A stretch of 64,000 bases of DNA. It comes from Streptomyces sp. TS71-3. GTDB taxonomy: Bacteria; Actinomycetota; Actinomycetes; Streptomycetales; Streptomycetaceae. Below, one piece after another: positions 3,034 to 10,325 of this stretch (the first letter of the stretch is position 1; the number at the start of each line of letters is the position of its first letter). The position numbers and the translations under genes were made by a program. Under the pieces are notes generated by a model. That model searched no databases. It was given only the letters and a program-made list of their open reading frames with translations, and had not been told where the DNA came from. The stretch spans positions 4,278,001 to 4,342,000 of the forward strand of contig NZ_BNEL01000001.1 in assembly GCF_018327685.1 (NCBI RefSeq). The letters are read 5' to 3'.

Positions 3034-4734
3034 TCAGCGGGGGAACGGCCCGCGCCGCGGCCCCGCCTCGCCCTCGGGCGGCCGGGGCACGAACGGCAGG
3101 AGCAGGTACGGCTCCTCGCCGGGCGCCGCGTGGAGCGTGGTGGTGCCGCCGAAGACGTCCGCGGGCCGATCGGCCTGGTCGGTGTGGAGGAACATGCCGT
3201 GGCCCTTCATCGGCACCCCGTACGTGCTGGGCCAGGGGCCGTCGCCGGGCATCTCGAAGTCCCGGCCCTGGACGGTGACCGCGATCCGGTACCCGGCCGG
3301 GACCACCACCGACGTCGGCCAGATCTCCACGTCCAGCGGCACGGCCTCTCCCGGCGTCAGCGGTGCCGCCACGTCGTGCGGGTGCCAGGGCCGGTACGGG
3401 AGGCTGCGCTCCGGGTCCGTCGCGCGGTGCGAGGCGCGCAGCCACCCCGCCCCGATCACCCCGGCCGGGTCGAGCGCCGAGACGAAGGTGACGTCGGCGC
3501 CGTCCGGATCGAGGACGCGCAGCGTCAGGAAGACGTCCGCGTCGGCCGTCGTCGACGAGATCACCAGCCGCGCGGCGGCCGGCCCGGTGATCTCGGTCTC
3601 CTCCTCCAGCGGTTCGGTGAGGAAGGTCAGGCCGTCGCCGAGCGCCTCGAAGTCCGCCCGCGCGCCGCGTGCCGGCGGCTCGCCGGTCAGCGCGCCGGCC
3701 TCCAGGTCCAGGTAGAGCCTGGTCCACCGGGTCCTCGCGAGGGGCCACTCCTGCTCCGCCCGCGGCTCGAAACTGCCGTCCACATGGCGCACGTTGAGCA
3801 CGACGGGCGGCTGCGTGTCCCAGCCGGTGTCCTCAGCCTTGAGCAGGTGGCCGAAGAAGCGCTTCTGGAGCGCGACACCGTAGTCCGTGTAGAACTCGGC
3901 GAAGTGTTCGAGGCCGTGGATCTCCAGCCACTTGCCGGCCGACGAGGCGCGCACGTAGCCCTCGGTGTTCCCGCGGGTGTGCAGGTGGTGCGCCCAGTTG
4001 CCGGCCGACAGCACCGGCACGGTGATCTTCTCCAACTCGGGGGAGCGGTCGCGGTAGTAGGCGTCGTCGAAGGGGTGGGCGAGCAGCCCGGCCGGTGAGT
4101 CCTCCCGGTTCCGCTCCAGTTCCTCAGCGGTCAGGGTCGCCGGTCCGGCGACCGGCAGGCCGGTGACGGGGTTGCGTGTGCCCCGGTCGCCGACGCCGTG
4201 CTGCACGGAGGAGACCTGCACCGGGTACCAGATCGAGGTGAAGACGTTGAGGATGCCCGCGTGGTGGGTGAACTCCCGGTAGTAGTCGCTCGCGCCCTCC
4301 CACGGGCAGATGGCGGCGAGGTGGGGCGGGTTCAGGGCGGCCACCTGCCACTGGTTGGCGGCGTAGTAGGAGATGCCGAGCAGCCCCACCTTGCCGTTGC
4401 TCCACGGCTGCACGCCCGCCCACTCGATGCACTCGTAGTAGTCCCGGGTCTCCCGCGGCGAGAAGATGTCCAGCCGGCCCGGCGAGCGGCCGGAGCCCCG
4501 CGAGTCGACGCGCACGCACACGTACCCGTCCGGGACCCACTTCTCCGGGTCCGCGGTCTCCCAGTTCTGGTAGGCGTTGCTCGAACCCGCCACGGCGTCC
4601 GGGTACTTGCGGGCCAGCGGCCCCCACATGCCCGGGAAGCCCTCCTGGAAGGCGAGCTGGGGTCTGGTCTCCGCGGCCACGGCTCTCGTCCAGGGCAGCG
4701 GGGGCCTGTACGCCGTGCGCGTGCTGCTCGGCAT
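3034..4734 (-). pseudogene. CocE/NonD (X-Pro dipeptidyl-peptidase type) hydrolase, 5'-truncated
   Basis: An open frame of 566 codons. From residue 27 (position 4656) it matches the CocE/NonD alpha/beta-hydrolases: VCVRVDSRGSGRSPG, the nucleophile elbow GLLGISYYAANQWQ, HGLEHFAEFY near the expected catalytic histidine, and a C-terminal jelly-roll domain (from about 330) ending GTTTLHAAPGEEPYLLLPFV. The family's N-terminal strands (VPMRDGVxLAADVYRP region, roughly 60 residues) are missing. The first 26 codons of the open frame lie antisense to an MFS fragment, so the 5' end was lost at a rearrangement at 4650-4660. Native start and promoter are gone. It could still be made from ATG 4734 but is probably inactive. 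Confidence 0.75.
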
Positions 4735-5265
4735 CGCCGAGGCGGGCTTCTACCCCGGTGTGCTGCTCTACCTGATGCTCTGGTTCCCCACCCGCTACCG
4801 AGGGCGCATGCTCGCCTTCTTCGTGCTCGGCGGCTCCCTCTCCGGAGTGTTCGGCAACCCGTTGACCGGGCTGATCCTCGACCACACCGACGGCTTCCTC
4901 GGCCTCTCCGGTTGGCGGATGATGTTCGTCCTGGAGGGCCTGCCGGCAATCGTCATCGGCATGGTGGCGTTCTTCGTGCTGCGCGACCACCCCGCAGACG
5001 CCGCCTGGCTCGGCGAACGGGAACGGACCTGGCTCACCGGGGAGCTGTCGGCCGAGCGCTCGGGCGTGCACGGCCACAACGCCCAGGCCGGAAGCTTCCG
5101 CATGATCAAGGACATCCGGGTGGCGATGCTGTCGGCCATCTACTTCTGCAAGAGCGTCGGGCAGTACGGGCTGACCTTCTTCATGCCGCAGATGATCGTG
5201 CTGTTCGAGGCCAACGCCCACCACACCTACTCGCCGACCGAGGTCAGCCTGCTCACCTCCATCCC
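4655..5265 (+). pseudogene. MFS transporter fragment (sugar-acid/phthalate permease type)
   Basis: The frame from about 4655 encodes SWGLVSAATALVQG, LYAVRVLLGIAEAGFYPGVL and LWFPTRYRGRMLAFFVLGGS. These are the TM3-TM4 hallmarks of anion:cation symporters for tartrate, phthalate or galactonate. It continues through TM6 and the central loop to about TM7 (YFCKSVGQYGLTFFMPQMIV) and then breaks near 5265. TM1-2 and TM8-12 are absent, so it cannot work. It is head-to-head with the truncated CocE gene at the same break. Confidence 0.75.
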
Positions 5266-5646: not shown

Positions 5647-5952
5647 ATGAGGGTCGAGTTATCAGAGGTCATCGCCGAGCTCCGGGCCGAGCTCTCGGCG
5701 GCGATGCACGCCGGCGACGGCGAGGAGCTGCGTTTCGAACTCGGCCCGGTGGAACTGGAGCTGACCCTGGCGGTGTCCAGGGACGCGGGCCCCTCCGCGA
5801 AGGTGAAGTTCTGGGTGGTCGAGATGGGGGCCGACGCGAAGCTCTCGACGCAGTCGACCCAGCGGATAAGGCTGAGTCTCGAACCGCGCCGGGCAGGCGC
5901 CCCGGACTCCCGCATGATGATCACGGGCGACTCGCTGCCGGGTGAACGGTGA
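5647..5952 (+). CDS. Trypco2 (trypsin co-occurring domain 2) protein
   Basis: 101 residues from ATG 5647, with GAGGGG upstream. The small alpha+beta fold pattern (MRVELSEVIAELRAELSAAM, then ELRFELGPVELELTLAVSRD, then KVKFWVVEMGADA) fits the trypco2 family. Such proteins are encoded beside trypsin-like proteases in predicted NTP-dependent conflict systems and may sense or pair with the protease. The stop overlaps the GTG start of the protease gene by 4 bp (GTGA), so the two are translationally coupled. The biochemical role is unknown. Confidence 0.78.
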   Translation: MRVELSEVIAELRAELSAAMHAGDGEELRFELGPVELELTLAVSRDAGPSAKVKFWVVEMGADAKLSTQSTQRIRLSLEPRRAGAPDSRMMITGDSLPGER

Positions 5953-8900
5953 CGTCGGGGGTGGACGTCCGCCGCGTCGCCGAGATCATCGTCGATGCCG
6001 GGGGCCGTACCCCGCAGCGCGGCTCCGGTTACCGGATCCGCCCGACGGCGGTCCTGACGGCCGCGCACGTGGTGAACGGCGCACGCTCGATCCGCGTGCA
6101 GTTCGACGGTGGCCTCAGGACCGAGTGGGCCGCCGACGCCACCGTGGCCTGGTCGTGCCCGGAGCACGACATCGCCGTCCTGGCCATGGAGGGCCGCGCC
6201 GGGGCCCTGCCCGAGACACCGTTGGGCGGGATCCCCGACGACAGGGTCCTGCGGCTGAAGGCCTTGGCGATCGGTTTCCCGCGGTTCAAACTGCGGTCGG
6301 ACGACGACGGCCGGACGTGGTACCGCGACACCCACCAGGCGGACGGCTCGATCGGGACGGCGTCCAACCGGATGCAGGGCACCCTGGAGGTCAGGGTGGC
6401 GGCGCCGCGCGCCGAGCCGGACGGCGCCGTCTCGCCGTGGGAGGGCATGTCAGGGGCCGCGCTGTGGTGCCGCGACCGGATCGTCGGCGTGCTGGCGCGG
6501 CACTACGGGAAGGAGGGCGACGGCAGCCTGACGGCCTTTCGGGTGGACCGCTGCGTCGCGGCCCTCGGCACCGACGAGCGCCTCCGCCTCGCGGAGCTGG
6601 CCGGGACACCGCGGTCGGGGCCGCTGCCCCCCGTCCTTCCGCCGACCAGGCACGACGTGGTCAGGCGGGTCCACCAGGCGGCCGTCCGCGAGGACTTCGC
6701 GCCCCTGCGACTGCGGGACCGCGAGGAGGAGCTGTCCGACCTGGCGGCGTTCTGCGCGGGCCGGCAGCCCTACGCGTGGGTGCAGGGCGAGGCCTGGGCC
6801 GGGAAGACGGCGCTGCTCTCGTGGTTCGTGCTGAACCCGCCGCCCGGGGTGGAGGTCGCGTCGTTCTTCGTCACCCGGCGCCTGCCCGGCGCGGCCGACG
6901 GCGACGCGTTCACGGCCACGGTCGCGCGGCAGCTCTCCGCGTCGGCGGACGGCGAGTCCGGCAGCGGGGCCGCGTCCCACCGGCGCGGCTGGCTCGCCTC
7001 GCTGTTCGAGTCCGCGGCGTCACGGGCGCGCGGGAACGGCAAGGTGCTGCTGCTCGTCGTCGATGGACTCGACGAGGACAGCGGCGCCCTCGGGGGCGAC
7101 GCCGCCAGCATCGCGGCACTGCTGCCCCGGCACCCGCCGGACAACATGCGGGTACTGGTGTCCAGCCGACCGGACCTCCGCCTGCCGGCCGACGTGCCGG
7201 GCGACCACCCCCTGCGGGCGTGCCCGGTGCGCGAACTCGCCGCGTCCCCGCACGCACGCCGGCTGGAGCACGACGCCTCGACGGAGCTGGCGCACACGCT
7301 GCGGGACACCGGCGTGCGGCGTCAGGTGCTCGGGTTCGTCGCCGCGGCCCGTGGCGGGCTGACCGGCACCGACCTGGGCGAACTCACCGGACACGAACCG
7401 GACGACATCGACGCCCTGCTCCGGGCCGACCTCGGGCACAGCGTCACCGGCCGGTCGTCGGCGACCGGGCAGCTCGCCTACTTCCTCAGCCACGACACGC
7501 TGCAGACCGCGACCGAGCAGAGCCTCAGCACGGAGATCGACGACCTGCGCGACCGGCTGCACCGCTGGGCGGACGGCTACCGGCGGCGCGACTGGCCGGA
7601 CGGCACCCCCGCCTACCTCCTGTACGACTATCCCAACCTGCTCGTGGCCACCAGGGACCTCGCCGGTCTCGCCCGGTGCGCCACCGACCGGGCGCGGCAG
7701 GACATGCTGCGCCGGCGCACCGGCAACGACTTCCTGGCCATCGCCGAGATCGACATGGCCTACCAGCTCAACGTCAGGCAGCACGCCACCGATCTGCCGC
7801 TGGCGCTGCGCCTGGCCCTGTGCCGCGACGAGCTGGCCCGCCGGTACGAGCACATGCCCAGCATCCTGCCGGCCGTGTGGGCCAGGCTCGGCGCGTACGA
7901 ACAGGCCGAGTCGCTCGCCCGGTTGCACGGCGGGGTGTCGCGGTACTGGGCGATCCGGCAGGTCGCCGAGACCATCGCGGAGAACGGCGACCGGCAGCGC
8001 GCCGAGGCCGTCGCCGGGTGGCTCGACGACCACGCGACGCTCGCCGTGGTCGCCGAGGCGGTCGGCGACCACGAGCGGGCCGACCGGATCGCCCTGGACC
8101 CGACCCGGCAGGACAGTGACCTGCTCGGCCGTCTTTCGGTGGCGGCCGAGGAGGCCGGCGACCACGAACGGGCCGAGCTGCTCGCGCGCGCCTGCGGCTA
8201 CCCCTCGCTCACGGCGCGCCGGGCCCTGGCCGCGGCGCGGTGCGGTGACTTCGCGCGGGCCGGGTCGCTGGCCCGGTCCGTGGGTGTCGCCGGCGCCGGC
8301 GACGACGTGCACGCCCGCTGGTACGACGGTGACGACGCCCTCGTCGAGCGGGCCGAGACCCTGGTCGGCGTGGCCGAGGTCGCGGCCGAGCGGGGTGAGC
8401 ACGCGCGGGCGCGGGAACTCACCGCAGCCGCGGGGGAACTCGCGCGCACGATGACCGACCCCGTGGGCCACCAGCAGGTACTCGCCCGGTTGGCGGCCTT
8501 CGACGGCGACTGGGATCGCGTCGAGGACCTGGTGCACGAGGCGGACGAGTTCGACGTCTACCGGTTCGAGTGGCTCGTGGAGCGCATGGCGCGGGCCGGC
8601 GAGTACGACCGGGCGGAAGGCGTCGCCCGGCTGATGCCCGCGGGTGGCTCGCCGGCCTGGAATCCCATCCGGCTCGTCGAGGTCATGGCCGAGAAGGGGG
8701 ACTACCAGCGGGCCGAGCACCTCACCAGATCGCTGCCCAGGGCGTTGGACACCGCAGAGGCCTTCGCCCGGTTGGCCTGGGTCGCCGCCGGCGCGGACGG
8801 GCAGGACAGGGCCCGGCGGTTCATCGCCGGGTGCGAGGGTGCGATGGGCTCGACGGACTGCGCCAGGATCCAGGCCGACGGGCTCATCGCCGTCCTGGAG

Positions 8901-10325
8901 GCGGTGGGGAGGTCCACCGTGCCCGAGGACCGCGACCGTGCGCGTCCCTTGATCAGGATGGCCAAGGCGAAGATCCACCAGATCGGGGAGCCGGGATGGC
9001 GGCGGCACGTCTTCGAACGTCTCGTCATGGTGATCTCCACGACCGGCCACGCCCCGAGGGCCGACTCCATGCTGCGGTCCTCGCACGTGCCGACCGACCC
9101 GGCGTGGGGACAGTGCGTCCTGGCGGACGAGGCAGCCAGGAAGGGCGACCGGGTCCGGGCGGCGGCCCTGCTCCGGTCGGCCTCCCCGGTCATGCGCGCG
9201 GCGCCGGTCTCCCCCGGCTACCGGCACGGCCTCGGACTGCTCGTCCGCGCCGCCACGTTGATCGGCGAACAGGACGAGGCGGCCACGGTGCTGCACGGCA
9301 TCGGTGACCCGGCCGACCAGCTCAGAGCGCTGAACCTGCTCACCCAGGGCACCGACGACGCCGACCCCGCCCACGTGGAGCCGCTCGCGCGGGGGATCGC
9401 CGAACCCTACTACCGGGCGTGCGCGCTCACCGACCTGGCGCTGATGGCGGCCCGGGCGGGCGCTCGCGAGCACGCGGGGCGACTGCTGCGCGAGGTACCG
9501 GGCATCGCGGCGTCCTGCCCCAAGAGACACCAGATCCTGATCGTCCTGGAAATGGTGATCAAGGCGGCGATCGAGCTCGACGACCGCGAACTCGCGCGCT
9601 CGGCCGTCCTCCGGGCGCAGGAGCTGGCGCTGCGGGAGGAGAACGGGCCGACCCTGGCGTCGAACGTGCGAGAGATCCTGCACGTCGCCGCCCCGGTCTG
9701 CGACCGCGACGAGATCCAGTCGATGATCGAGCACGCCGAGGACGCCGTCTGGCACTGGAGCCAGGGCGACCGGGACCACGCGCTGACCCTGCTCGTCCGC
9801 GAGGTGGCGCACGACGCCCGGGACCACGACCTCGTGGAGAGCCTGGCCGGATCCGTGAGCGGCTCCGACGGCAGGGCGCAGGCGCTGGCCGAGATCGCGG
9901 CGGCCCTGGCGGACGCCGGTGCCGCCGACCGCGCCCGGGCCGTCTTCGTGCGGGCCGTCACCACCTTCGGCACCGGGGCGGTGCCGAACCCGTCCGGCGC
10001 GCTCCAGGCCCTGGCGAAGGCCGCGGACCGGATCGGCGACCACGACAGGGCCGACGAGTTCGTGTCCCGGCTGCACTCGACCGGTGATCGAGCGCGGGCG
10101 TTGACGGGACTGGTGGAATCCGATCTGGCGATGCGGGACCGCTGCACCGAGCCGGAGGAGCGGGACCGGCACGCACGGCGCGCGACCAGGCGTGCGGCGC
10201 AGGCCCTGGCCGCCGAGGTCTGGACGGAGATCCACTGGAAGTTCCAGGACGGTACGGGGCCGCTCACGCTCGCCGTGCGGGTGGACCCGCGCTGCGTCGA
10301 CGCCCTGCTCGAAGCCGGAGGGTGA
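5949..10325 (+). CDS. Trypsin-like serine protease / STAND NTPase / TPR-repeat protein
   Basis: 1458 residues with three modules. (1) Residues about 8-210 are a trypsin-like protease with an apparently intact triad: His40 (LTAAHVV), Asp74 (HDIAVLAM) and Ser168 (WEGMSGAAL). There is no signal peptide, so it acts in the cytoplasm. (2) Residues about 250-640 are a P-loop NTPase of STAND/NACHT type: Walker A GEAWAGKT (280-287), Walker B VLLLVVDGLDED (366-377) and a sensor-like VLVSSRP (402-408). (3) Residues about 640-1440 are helical TPR-like repeats; at least 14 units carry a GD(H/Y)xRAExLAR-type motif. Such protease-NTPase-repeat proteins are predicted conflict/immunity switches in which ligand sensing by the repeats unleashes proteolysis. 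Coupled to the trypco2 gene. The trigger and target are not visible. Confidence 0.85.
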   Translation: MTSGVDVRRVAEIIVDAGGRTPQRGSGYRIRPTAVLTAAHVVNGARSIRVQFDGGLRTEWAADATVAWSCPEHDIAVLAMEGRAGALPETPLGGIPDDRVLRLKALAIGFPRFKLRSDDDGRTWYRDTHQADGSIGTASNRMQGTLEVRVAAPRAEPDGAVSPWEGMSGAALWCRDRIVGVLARHYGKEGDGSLTAFRVDRCVAALGTDERLRLAELAGTPRSGPLPPVLPPTRHDVVRRVHQAAVREDFAPLRLRDREEELSDLAAFCAGRQPYAWVQGEAWAGKTALLSWFVLNPPPGVEVASFFVTRRLPGAADGDAFTATVARQLSASADGESGSGAASHRRGWLASLFESAASRARGNGKVLLLVVDGLDEDSGALGGDAASIAALLPRHPPDNMRVLVSSRPDLRLPADVPGDHPLRACPVRELAASPHARRLEHDASTELAHTLRDTGVRRQVLGFVAAARGGLTGTDLGELTGHEPDDIDALLRADLGHSVTGRSSATGQLAYFLSHDTLQTATEQSLSTEIDDLRDRLHRWADGYRRRDWPDGTPAYLLYDYPNLLVATRDLAGLARCATDRARQDMLRRRTGNDFLAIAEIDMAYQLNVRQHATDLPLALRLALCRDELARRYEHMPSILPAVWARLGAYEQAESLARLHGGVSRYWAIRQVAETIAENGDRQRAEAVAGWLDDHATLAVVAEAVGDHERADRIALDPTRQDSDLLGRLSVAAEEAGDHERAELLARACGYPSLTARRALAAARCGDFARAGSLARSVGVAGAGDDVHARWYDGDDALVERAETLVGVAEVAAERGEHARARELTAAAGELARTMTDPVGHQQVLARLAAFDGDWDRVEDLVHEADEFDVYRFEWLVERMARAGEYDRAEGVARLMPAGGSPAWNPIRLVEVMAEKGDYQRAEHLTRSLPRALDTAEAFARLAWVAAGADGQDRARRFIAGCEGAMGSTDCARIQADGLIAVLEAVGRSTVPEDRDRARPLIRMAKAKIHQIGEPGWRRHVFERLVMVISTTGHAPRADSMLRSSHVPTDPAWGQCVLADEAARKGDRVRAAALLRSASPVMRAAPVSPGYRHGLGLLVRAATLIGEQDEAATVLHGIGDPADQLRALNLLTQGTDDADPAHVEPLARGIAEPYYRACALTDLALMAARAGAREHAGRLLREVPGIAASCPKRHQILIVLEMVIKAAIELDDRELARSAVLRAQELALREENGPTLASNVREILHVAAPVCDRDEIQSMIEHAEDAVWHWSQGDRDHALTLLVREVAHDARDHDLVESLAGSVSGSDGRAQALAEIAAALADAGAADRARAVFVRAVTTFGTGAVPNPSGALQALAKAADRIGDHDRADEFVSRLHSTGDRARALTGLVESDLAMRDRCTEPEERDRHARRATRRAAQALAAEVWTEIHWKFQDGTGPLTLAVRVDPRCVDALLEAGG

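Follow-up and report, generated by a model that had tools for sequence, protein, structure and literature searches.

What is the role of a receptor-like bacterial protein that carries its own protease domain and is encoded directly behind a small, overlapping gene? The question is raised by a locus in Streptomyces sp. TS71-3, which lies in the analysed window, a 64,000-nucleotide stretch of DNA (contig NZ_BNEL01000001.1, positions 4,278,001 to 4,342,000; the coordinates given below are those of the window). An initial annotation had described the locus as a candidate proteolytic immunity switch, composed of two genes overlapping at a GTGA sequence. Both genes were confirmed on the forward strand: the first (5647..5952, ATG start) encodes a Trypco2 protein of 101 aa, and the second (5949..10325, GTG start) a protein of 1458 aa, in which a trypsin-like domain, a STAND NTPase, an arm and helical repeats follow one another. 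This two-gene unit, with its trypsin domain, NTPase and degenerate repeats, is real and does not result from chance. As a whole, the earlier interpretation is partly supported. We favour, with moderate confidence, the view that the unit is a self-contained NLR-type receptor-protease, whose trypsin domain has a dedicated cofactor, Trypco2.

The assignment of the small protein to Trypco2 was upheld. It matches the Pfam family PF19631 over the full length of the profile (positions 1-78 of 78; E 3.5e-29; 101.3 bits against a cut-off of 24.2), and a trypsin-like peptidase adjoins it, encoded by the overlapping downstream gene. The stop and start codons share the sequence GTGA (5949..5952), and the resulting gap of -4 is the most frequent one in 67 pairs whose Trypco2 gene lies upstream in the same orientation. 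In an AlphaFold2 model (mean pLDDT 77.7) the protein is predicted to form a helix (residues 5-23), followed by five strands of at least three residues. Neither a second Pfam family above the cut-off nor a clear fold match was found for it. Its conserved residues include Arg13, a FELGPVE stretch and the motif KxxFWVVE.

The trypsin-like domain of the large protein occupies residues 1-215 (5949..6593), with a Pfam Trypsin_2 match at residues 25-179 that exceeds the cut-off (E 1.2e-10). The catalytic triad named in the initial annotation is in place by the Pfam alignment, its codons being located at 6066..6068 (His40), 6168..6170 (Asp74) and 6450..6452 (Ser168). The three residues are invariant across 37 trypsin domains drawn from different receptor classes. 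In a larger set of trypsin domains encoded downstream of Trypco2, again across receptor classes, they were found in 74/74, 73/73 and 71/71 of the domains with a letter at the respective position, the remaining cells (one for Asp74, three for Ser168) being gaps. All three are invariant in a 55-row alignment; in one of 93 rows this holds for Asp74 and Ser168, and His40 is conserved in at least 90%. The profile of the family matched HtrA/DegP-type proteases, cathepsin G and factor D in the PDB. The His-Asp-Ser triad of a trypsin-fold protease is thus in place by alignment, and the domain is predicted to be catalytically competent. The PADLOC models Avs1b, LmuA, HamA1 and RT-protease gave weak matches that were best over the trypsin part. 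An identity with AVAST Avs1b was rejected: the NCBIfam model scored 19.8 bits where its cut-off is 1500, and its best stretch was confined to the same part.

The nucleotide-binding motifs likewise bore out the annotation of a STAND-type NTPase. In the 93-row alignment the invariant positions comprise (i) Gly285, Lys286 and Ala288 at the Walker A motif (GEAWAGKT, residues 280-287; 6786..6809), (ii) Asp372, Gly373, Asp375, Glu376 and Asp377 of the Walker B motif (LLLVVDGLDED, residues 367-377; 7047..7079) and (iii) Arg407 of the sequence SSRP (residues 405-408; 7161..7172), which we take to be the STAND sensor-arginine motif. Together with C-terminal repeats of a superstructure-forming kind, these are the features of a STAND/NLR-type receptor. 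Pfam placed the STAND-type family NPHP3_N at residues 273-407 (E 2.4e-5; 25.0 bits against a cut-off of 24.8), and NACHT fell under its cut-off (E 0.0019). The PADLOC model STAND_TPR (PDLC01173) matched the large protein with E 5.7e-91, best over residues 239-695. That model is described as an Xre-HTH fusion associated with a cas1-less I-E system, whereas the protein in the window is a trypsin fusion.

The C-terminal region (7941..10091) forms a putative sensor of degenerate TPR/PPR-like alpha-solenoid repeats. At least 14 TPR-like repeats had been proposed; the number was about right, since a profile derived from homologues found 12 copies (i-E <0.02) within residues 665-1381. The repeats cannot, however, be classed as clean TPRs. 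The sole Pfam TPR model listed for the protein, TPR_30, was far under its cut-off. When the family profile was compared with solved structures, designed PPR arrays ranked best (E 4.3e-17), followed by TPR and other solenoids. The leading match would suit PPR-like repeats that recognise RNA, such as a phage transcript, instead of a protein. TPR and designed helical repeats match too, however, any regular solenoid may do so, and no obvious PPR code was seen by eye in the consensus; we therefore hold an RNA cue to be very unlikely. The repeats are also the most divergent part of the protein. Pairs that average 76% identity in the STAND domain share 70% in the trypsin domain and 44% in the repeats, and the corresponding values for the nearest homologue (P0124) are 65%, 59% and 40%, with 64% in the C-terminal tail. 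Such rapid divergence fits a recognition surface, although poor alignment of the repeats may inflate it.

To judge from its homologues, the STAND_TPR receptor body is a widespread actinobacterial chassis. We examined 26 members taken from the best matches (24 from the genus and 2 from the order; 20 of them, 18 and 2 respectively, constitute one picked set), 7 with a trypsin domain and 19 without. A second, named set comprised the best 80 of 466 confirmed related loci, and here an N-terminal trypsin domain was found in 48 and was absent from 32. In a tree of STAND domains, the trypsin group requires a single change (support 92/95); this origin is tentative, because two members of the group are on long branches. 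Many trypsin-less members start with short motifs, e.g. GVQIGNGLQINI or FGYVAGNVDV, and a small protein encoded upstream ends in a motif like that at the N-terminus of the receptor. The pairing reached p <= 0.02 in 8 of the 19 trypsin-less chassis and z >= 3.5 in 10 of the 32 trypsin-less loci of the named set, both tests taking the best of several upstream open reading frames (ORFs) per locus, uncorrected. In the two proteins of the window a shared amyloid motif was not seen by eye; the pairwise test covered the trypsin-less chassis. Four members (L067, L072, L074, L075) have N-termini that appear by eye to be of the helix-turn-helix (HTH) type, and the two scanned, L067 and L072, gave no HTH match in Pfam.

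A comparable arrangement is known from bacterial amyloid NLR pairs, in which NLRs are linked to BELL proteins through BASS motifs (PMC7889193, PMC8086366; for these and all papers cited below, statements refer to the accessible parts of the text). Part of the trypsin-less STAND_TPR relatives is organised in the same way, whereas the output of the receptor in the window is a fused trypsin domain. Pfam named no family above the cut-off in four upstream small proteins scanned, one of which had a sub-threshold EAD10 match, so these proteins are BELL-like by arrangement only. Since trypsin-less chassis often hold a partner-matching motif at the place of the trypsin domain, this domain appears to sit in an output slot. 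The wiring of the same receptor body to other outputs in relatives suggests that the protease is the weapon of the receptor. The earlier view of trypsin as the effector is accordingly retained as regards the fused protease and adjusted in one respect: elsewhere the slot is filled by an amyloid-type motif with a small partner gene, or by an HTH-like N-terminus.

Trypco2 is tightly linked to the trypsin domain. A survey of 101 Trypco2 loci (the window and 100 fetched loci, out of more than 150 listed matches) was based on six-frame translations, which were preferred because the gene caller missed Trypco2 in 14 of these loci and also failed to call five of 20 chassis genes. Trypsin lies within 500 nt of Trypco2 in 90 loci; in 74 of these it follows downstream in the same orientation, and in 16 it is encoded on the opposite strand. 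For the other 11 loci, gene calls put trypsin adjacent in three (L084, L085, L157); it is 2 to 9 kb away in four (including L103) and missing from the fetched stretch in four. Within the named set, Trypco2 accompanies 44 of the 48 trypsin-bearing chassis versus none of the 32 trypsin-less ones; the Fisher value (2.7e-18) is descriptive only, because related loci are not independent. Trypco2 is directly upstream in 40 of the 44 cases, downstream in 3 and divergent in 1, and in 31 of the 40 the reading frame of the trypsin gene is uninterrupted where it passes the stop codon of Trypco2. The distances of the two partners correlate as well, with r = 0.859 over 74 loci (permuted maximum 0.136) and r = 0.907 within a NACHT class of 27 (permuted maximum 0.390).

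The modules fused behind a Trypco2-adjacent trypsin domain are diverse. Sequence clustering separated (i) NACHT with an LRR-like match (29), (ii) nSTAND5-TPR (9), (iii) a large group without a named class (9), (iv) STAND_TPR (6), (v) NACHT-TPR (5), (vi) NACHT (4), (vii) the PknG kinase (3), (viii) NB-ARC-TPR (2), (ix) HEAT (1) and others; each class is named from one scanned representative, and the LRR-like match of the first is under the cut-off. Judged by these clusters, Trypco2 follows trypsin rather than one receptor type.

Several of these loci have features of their own. Trypco2-trypsin-NACHT genes lie beside clpC and/or lsr2 in 19 of 29 loci (L086, L088 and 17 more), compared with 1 of 48 other Trypco2-trypsin loci, and this neighbourhood is possibly a Streptomyces hotspot for such genes. 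In L080, L082 and L130, Trypco2 is divergent from a trypsin domain fused to a PknG-type kinase (L080 scanned), near a gene for a solute-binding protein. In L129 and L165-L167 it is divergent from a separate trypsin protein of 440 to 453 residues; a PknG-like gene (L129 scanned) and a solute-binding protein gene are found in these loci as well. In L103, L122 and L161, Trypco2 belongs to larger clusters, in which a trypsin protein (about 350 residues) is encoded at a distance of some kb. L103 carries a VMAP protein (Pfam), and L122 and L161 contain ORFs of 61 to 63 residues, presumably precursors of FxSxx-type ribosomally synthesized and post-translationally modified peptides. A second, orphan Trypco2 gene is present in the genome of the window strain itself (L138:7860-8171; C1:3697871), with no trypsin within the fetched 16.5 kb; its product keeps the GER tail, the coding sequence of which overlaps the next start codon in the window.

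The tight linkage of Trypco2 to trypsin would also be expected if Trypco2 were the client of the protease, i.e. if the triggered receptor cut Trypco2 and the freed fragment acted as the executioner. There is a precedent, as the fused trypsin domains of Hachiman and AVAST proteins cut a nuclease proenzyme encoded by a neighbouring gene (PMC12799240). Both the usual gene order, with a small gene upstream of a fused trypsin, and the co-evolution of the two partners recall these nuclease-protease pairs, and no other candidate substrate gene recurs. Trypco2, however, with neither a second Pfam family nor a clear fold match, has no visible killing activity. The gene order is also looser than usual: 16 of 90 close pairs have Trypco2 on the opposite strand, and in 3 of 48 trypsin-bearing chassis it lies downstream. 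A client role thus seems unlikely to us. The trypsin-MBL nuclease pairs described in that paper (Hachiman, AVAST, Lamassu, DRT) resemble the window in the N-terminal fused trypsin and the upstream partner gene, but here the partner is Trypco2 and the sensor belongs to another STAND family. The gene directly upstream of the receptor-protease is not an MBL-fold nuclease gene, and no MBL family was found among the flanking ORFs scanned.

Two further systems can be compared. A computational study of 2020 (Kaur et al., PMC7159879) described the association between Trypco2 and trypsin and tied it to VMAP (MoxR-vWA) ternary systems of filamentous bacteria, where a Trypco2 gene likewise lies beside an N-terminal trypsin-like domain. 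In the window, unlike in those systems, the trypsin domain shares one chain with a STAND NTPase and helical repeats, and VMAP, MoxR or vWA were detected neither in the two proteins nor in ten flanking ORFs scanned with Pfam (some of them likely spurious). The accessible literature places Trypco2 with VMAP-type systems or with diversity-generating retroelement loci (PMC7159879, PMC10907252). Neither a STAND_TPR receptor with Trypco2 nor an exchange of amyloid and trypsin outputs was found in the accessible text of these two papers, supplements and subscription papers lying outside the search. The label "under-described" therefore has to be narrowed: the pairing with trypsin has been in print since 2020, tied there to VMAP ternary systems and not to a STAND_TPR receptor. 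The LypABC CARD-NLR system also unites a trypsin-like peptidase and an NLR-like ATPase in one pathway, and lysis depends on the catalytic serine of LypA (PMC13236601). There, as far as the accessible text goes, peptidase and NLR-like protein are two distinct chains, with a CARD-like domain, whereas the window has one polypeptide plus Trypco2.

The two-gene unit is accessory and patchily distributed. Among 150 genomes of the genus, Trypco2 was found in 99 and some match to the large protein in 59; the full architecture, i.e. a clear match through trypsin and STAND, was recognised in at least 7 (G000, G007, G009, G011, G049, G109, G122), a lower bound given that three candidates were scored per genome. 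A search of a large protein database with residues 1-700 gave 463 relatives among 7986 scored candidates. The named ones among 120 relatives listed are from actinobacteria, e.g. Streptomyces, Lentzea, Pseudonocardia and Actinoplanes, and the 119 listed besides the entry of the window itself have 885 to 2429 residues. Relatives are carried by 22 plasmid records, and among the 15 matches listed four begin in the trypsin domain. The seven loci of full architecture have differing flanks, as judged by eye.

This distribution bears on the idea that the unit serves development or stress regulation instead of defence, the STAND-repeat protein reading an internal signal and the protease processing a regulator. 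Bacterial transcriptional regulators include STAND-TPR proteins such as MalT, whose solenoid the repeats do match (E 2.6e-5); the HTH-like N-termini of some chassis members, seen by eye, point in the same direction. Patchy presence, differing flanks, fast-diverging repeats and relatives on plasmids all argue against such a role, which we consider distinctly improbable.

The site of the operon has been rearranged. Just downstream lies the RNase P RNA gene (rnpB, RF00010; 10491-10901, reverse strand). No nucleotide match to the operon was present at the rnpB site of 8/8 relatives chosen by rnpB similarity, and in one of the relatives, G045, the rnpB-EamA block is inverted with respect to a shared flank, from which the rearrangement of the site follows. 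Just upstream, a truncated MFS transporter fragment (4661-5210, forward strand; profile positions 69-233 of 347) overlaps or abuts a gene for an S15-type X-Pro peptidase (3034-4734, reverse strand), which suggests a rearranged site on this side too. The 38 window proteins scanned with PADLOC matched 12 families, nine of which correspond to one ABC transporter and one to Hsp90; the remaining two, PDC-S07 and SduA, were not traced to a gene.

If the unit is indeed a receptor-protease with a dedicated cofactor, its action may be pictured as follows. The C-terminal helical repeats would detect a signal, which most likely stems from an invader, upon which the STAND NTPase would exchange its nucleotide and oligomerise. 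Oligomerisation would gather the N-terminal trypsin-like domains and switch them on by proximity, and the activated protease would cut at least one cellular (or invader) protein, stopping the infected cell. Trypco2 would dock on the trypsin domain, and not on the NTPase, and would gate or complete it, as a helper or as a restraint.

A number of observations weigh against this reading. No defence island, such as the initial annotation had proposed to look for, is evident among the PADLOC matches of the 38 window proteins. By eye, no third gene recurs among the seven loci of full architecture, an absence that also agrees with the earlier picture, in which the effector is the protease fused to the STAND sensor and no further effector gene is apparent. 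Motif pairing is under the threshold in 11 of 19 and 22 of 32 trypsin-less loci, and L063, L066, L068 and L071 have a motif-like N-terminus and no matching neighbour. The triad geometry of the large protein is that of an alignment, the repeat identities hang on a poor one, and the co-divergence of Trypco2 and trypsin may partly reflect the joint inheritance of neighbouring genes. Trypco2 occurs without trypsin found nearby in L098, L108, L138 and L164. Conversely, Trypco2 is missing from the locus of 4 of the 48 trypsin receptors and from L058; it is therefore not strictly needed in cis.

The genomes of those four receptors carry Trypco2 elsewhere, as would be expected of an inhibitor, an antitoxin-like chaperone that holds the protease silent until the receptor fires. 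The small upstream overlapping gene would allow matched synthesis of such a protein, and Trypco2 accompanies trypsin whatever the receptor. The result in trans is weak, however, because two thirds of the genus genomes have Trypco2 anyway, and the existence of Trypco2 without a nearby trypsin also speaks against an inhibitor; we regard this role as rather unlikely, and retain that of a dedicated cofactor.

A broader model, which we put forward tentatively and with some doubt, is that of one actinobacterial NLR chassis with plug-in outputs: either a separate small effector templated by a short amyloid motif, or a protease that is built in and depends on Trypco2. Trypco2-trypsin would then be a proteolytic cassette that has moved among at least six receptor types, with Trypco2 as its universal, previously unrecognised gate, and the window would hold the minimal two-gene form, uniting sensor, switch and protease in one polypeptide. 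If this is true, nature has provided amyloid-wired and protease-wired pairs that share a sensor body and differ in output, and both the role of Trypco domains and the events triggered by bacterial amyloid NLRs would become testable with chimeras in laboratory Streptomyces. The unit would also constitute a minimal model for NLRs with a protease of their own, paralleling the caspase-recruiting apoptosome within a single chain.

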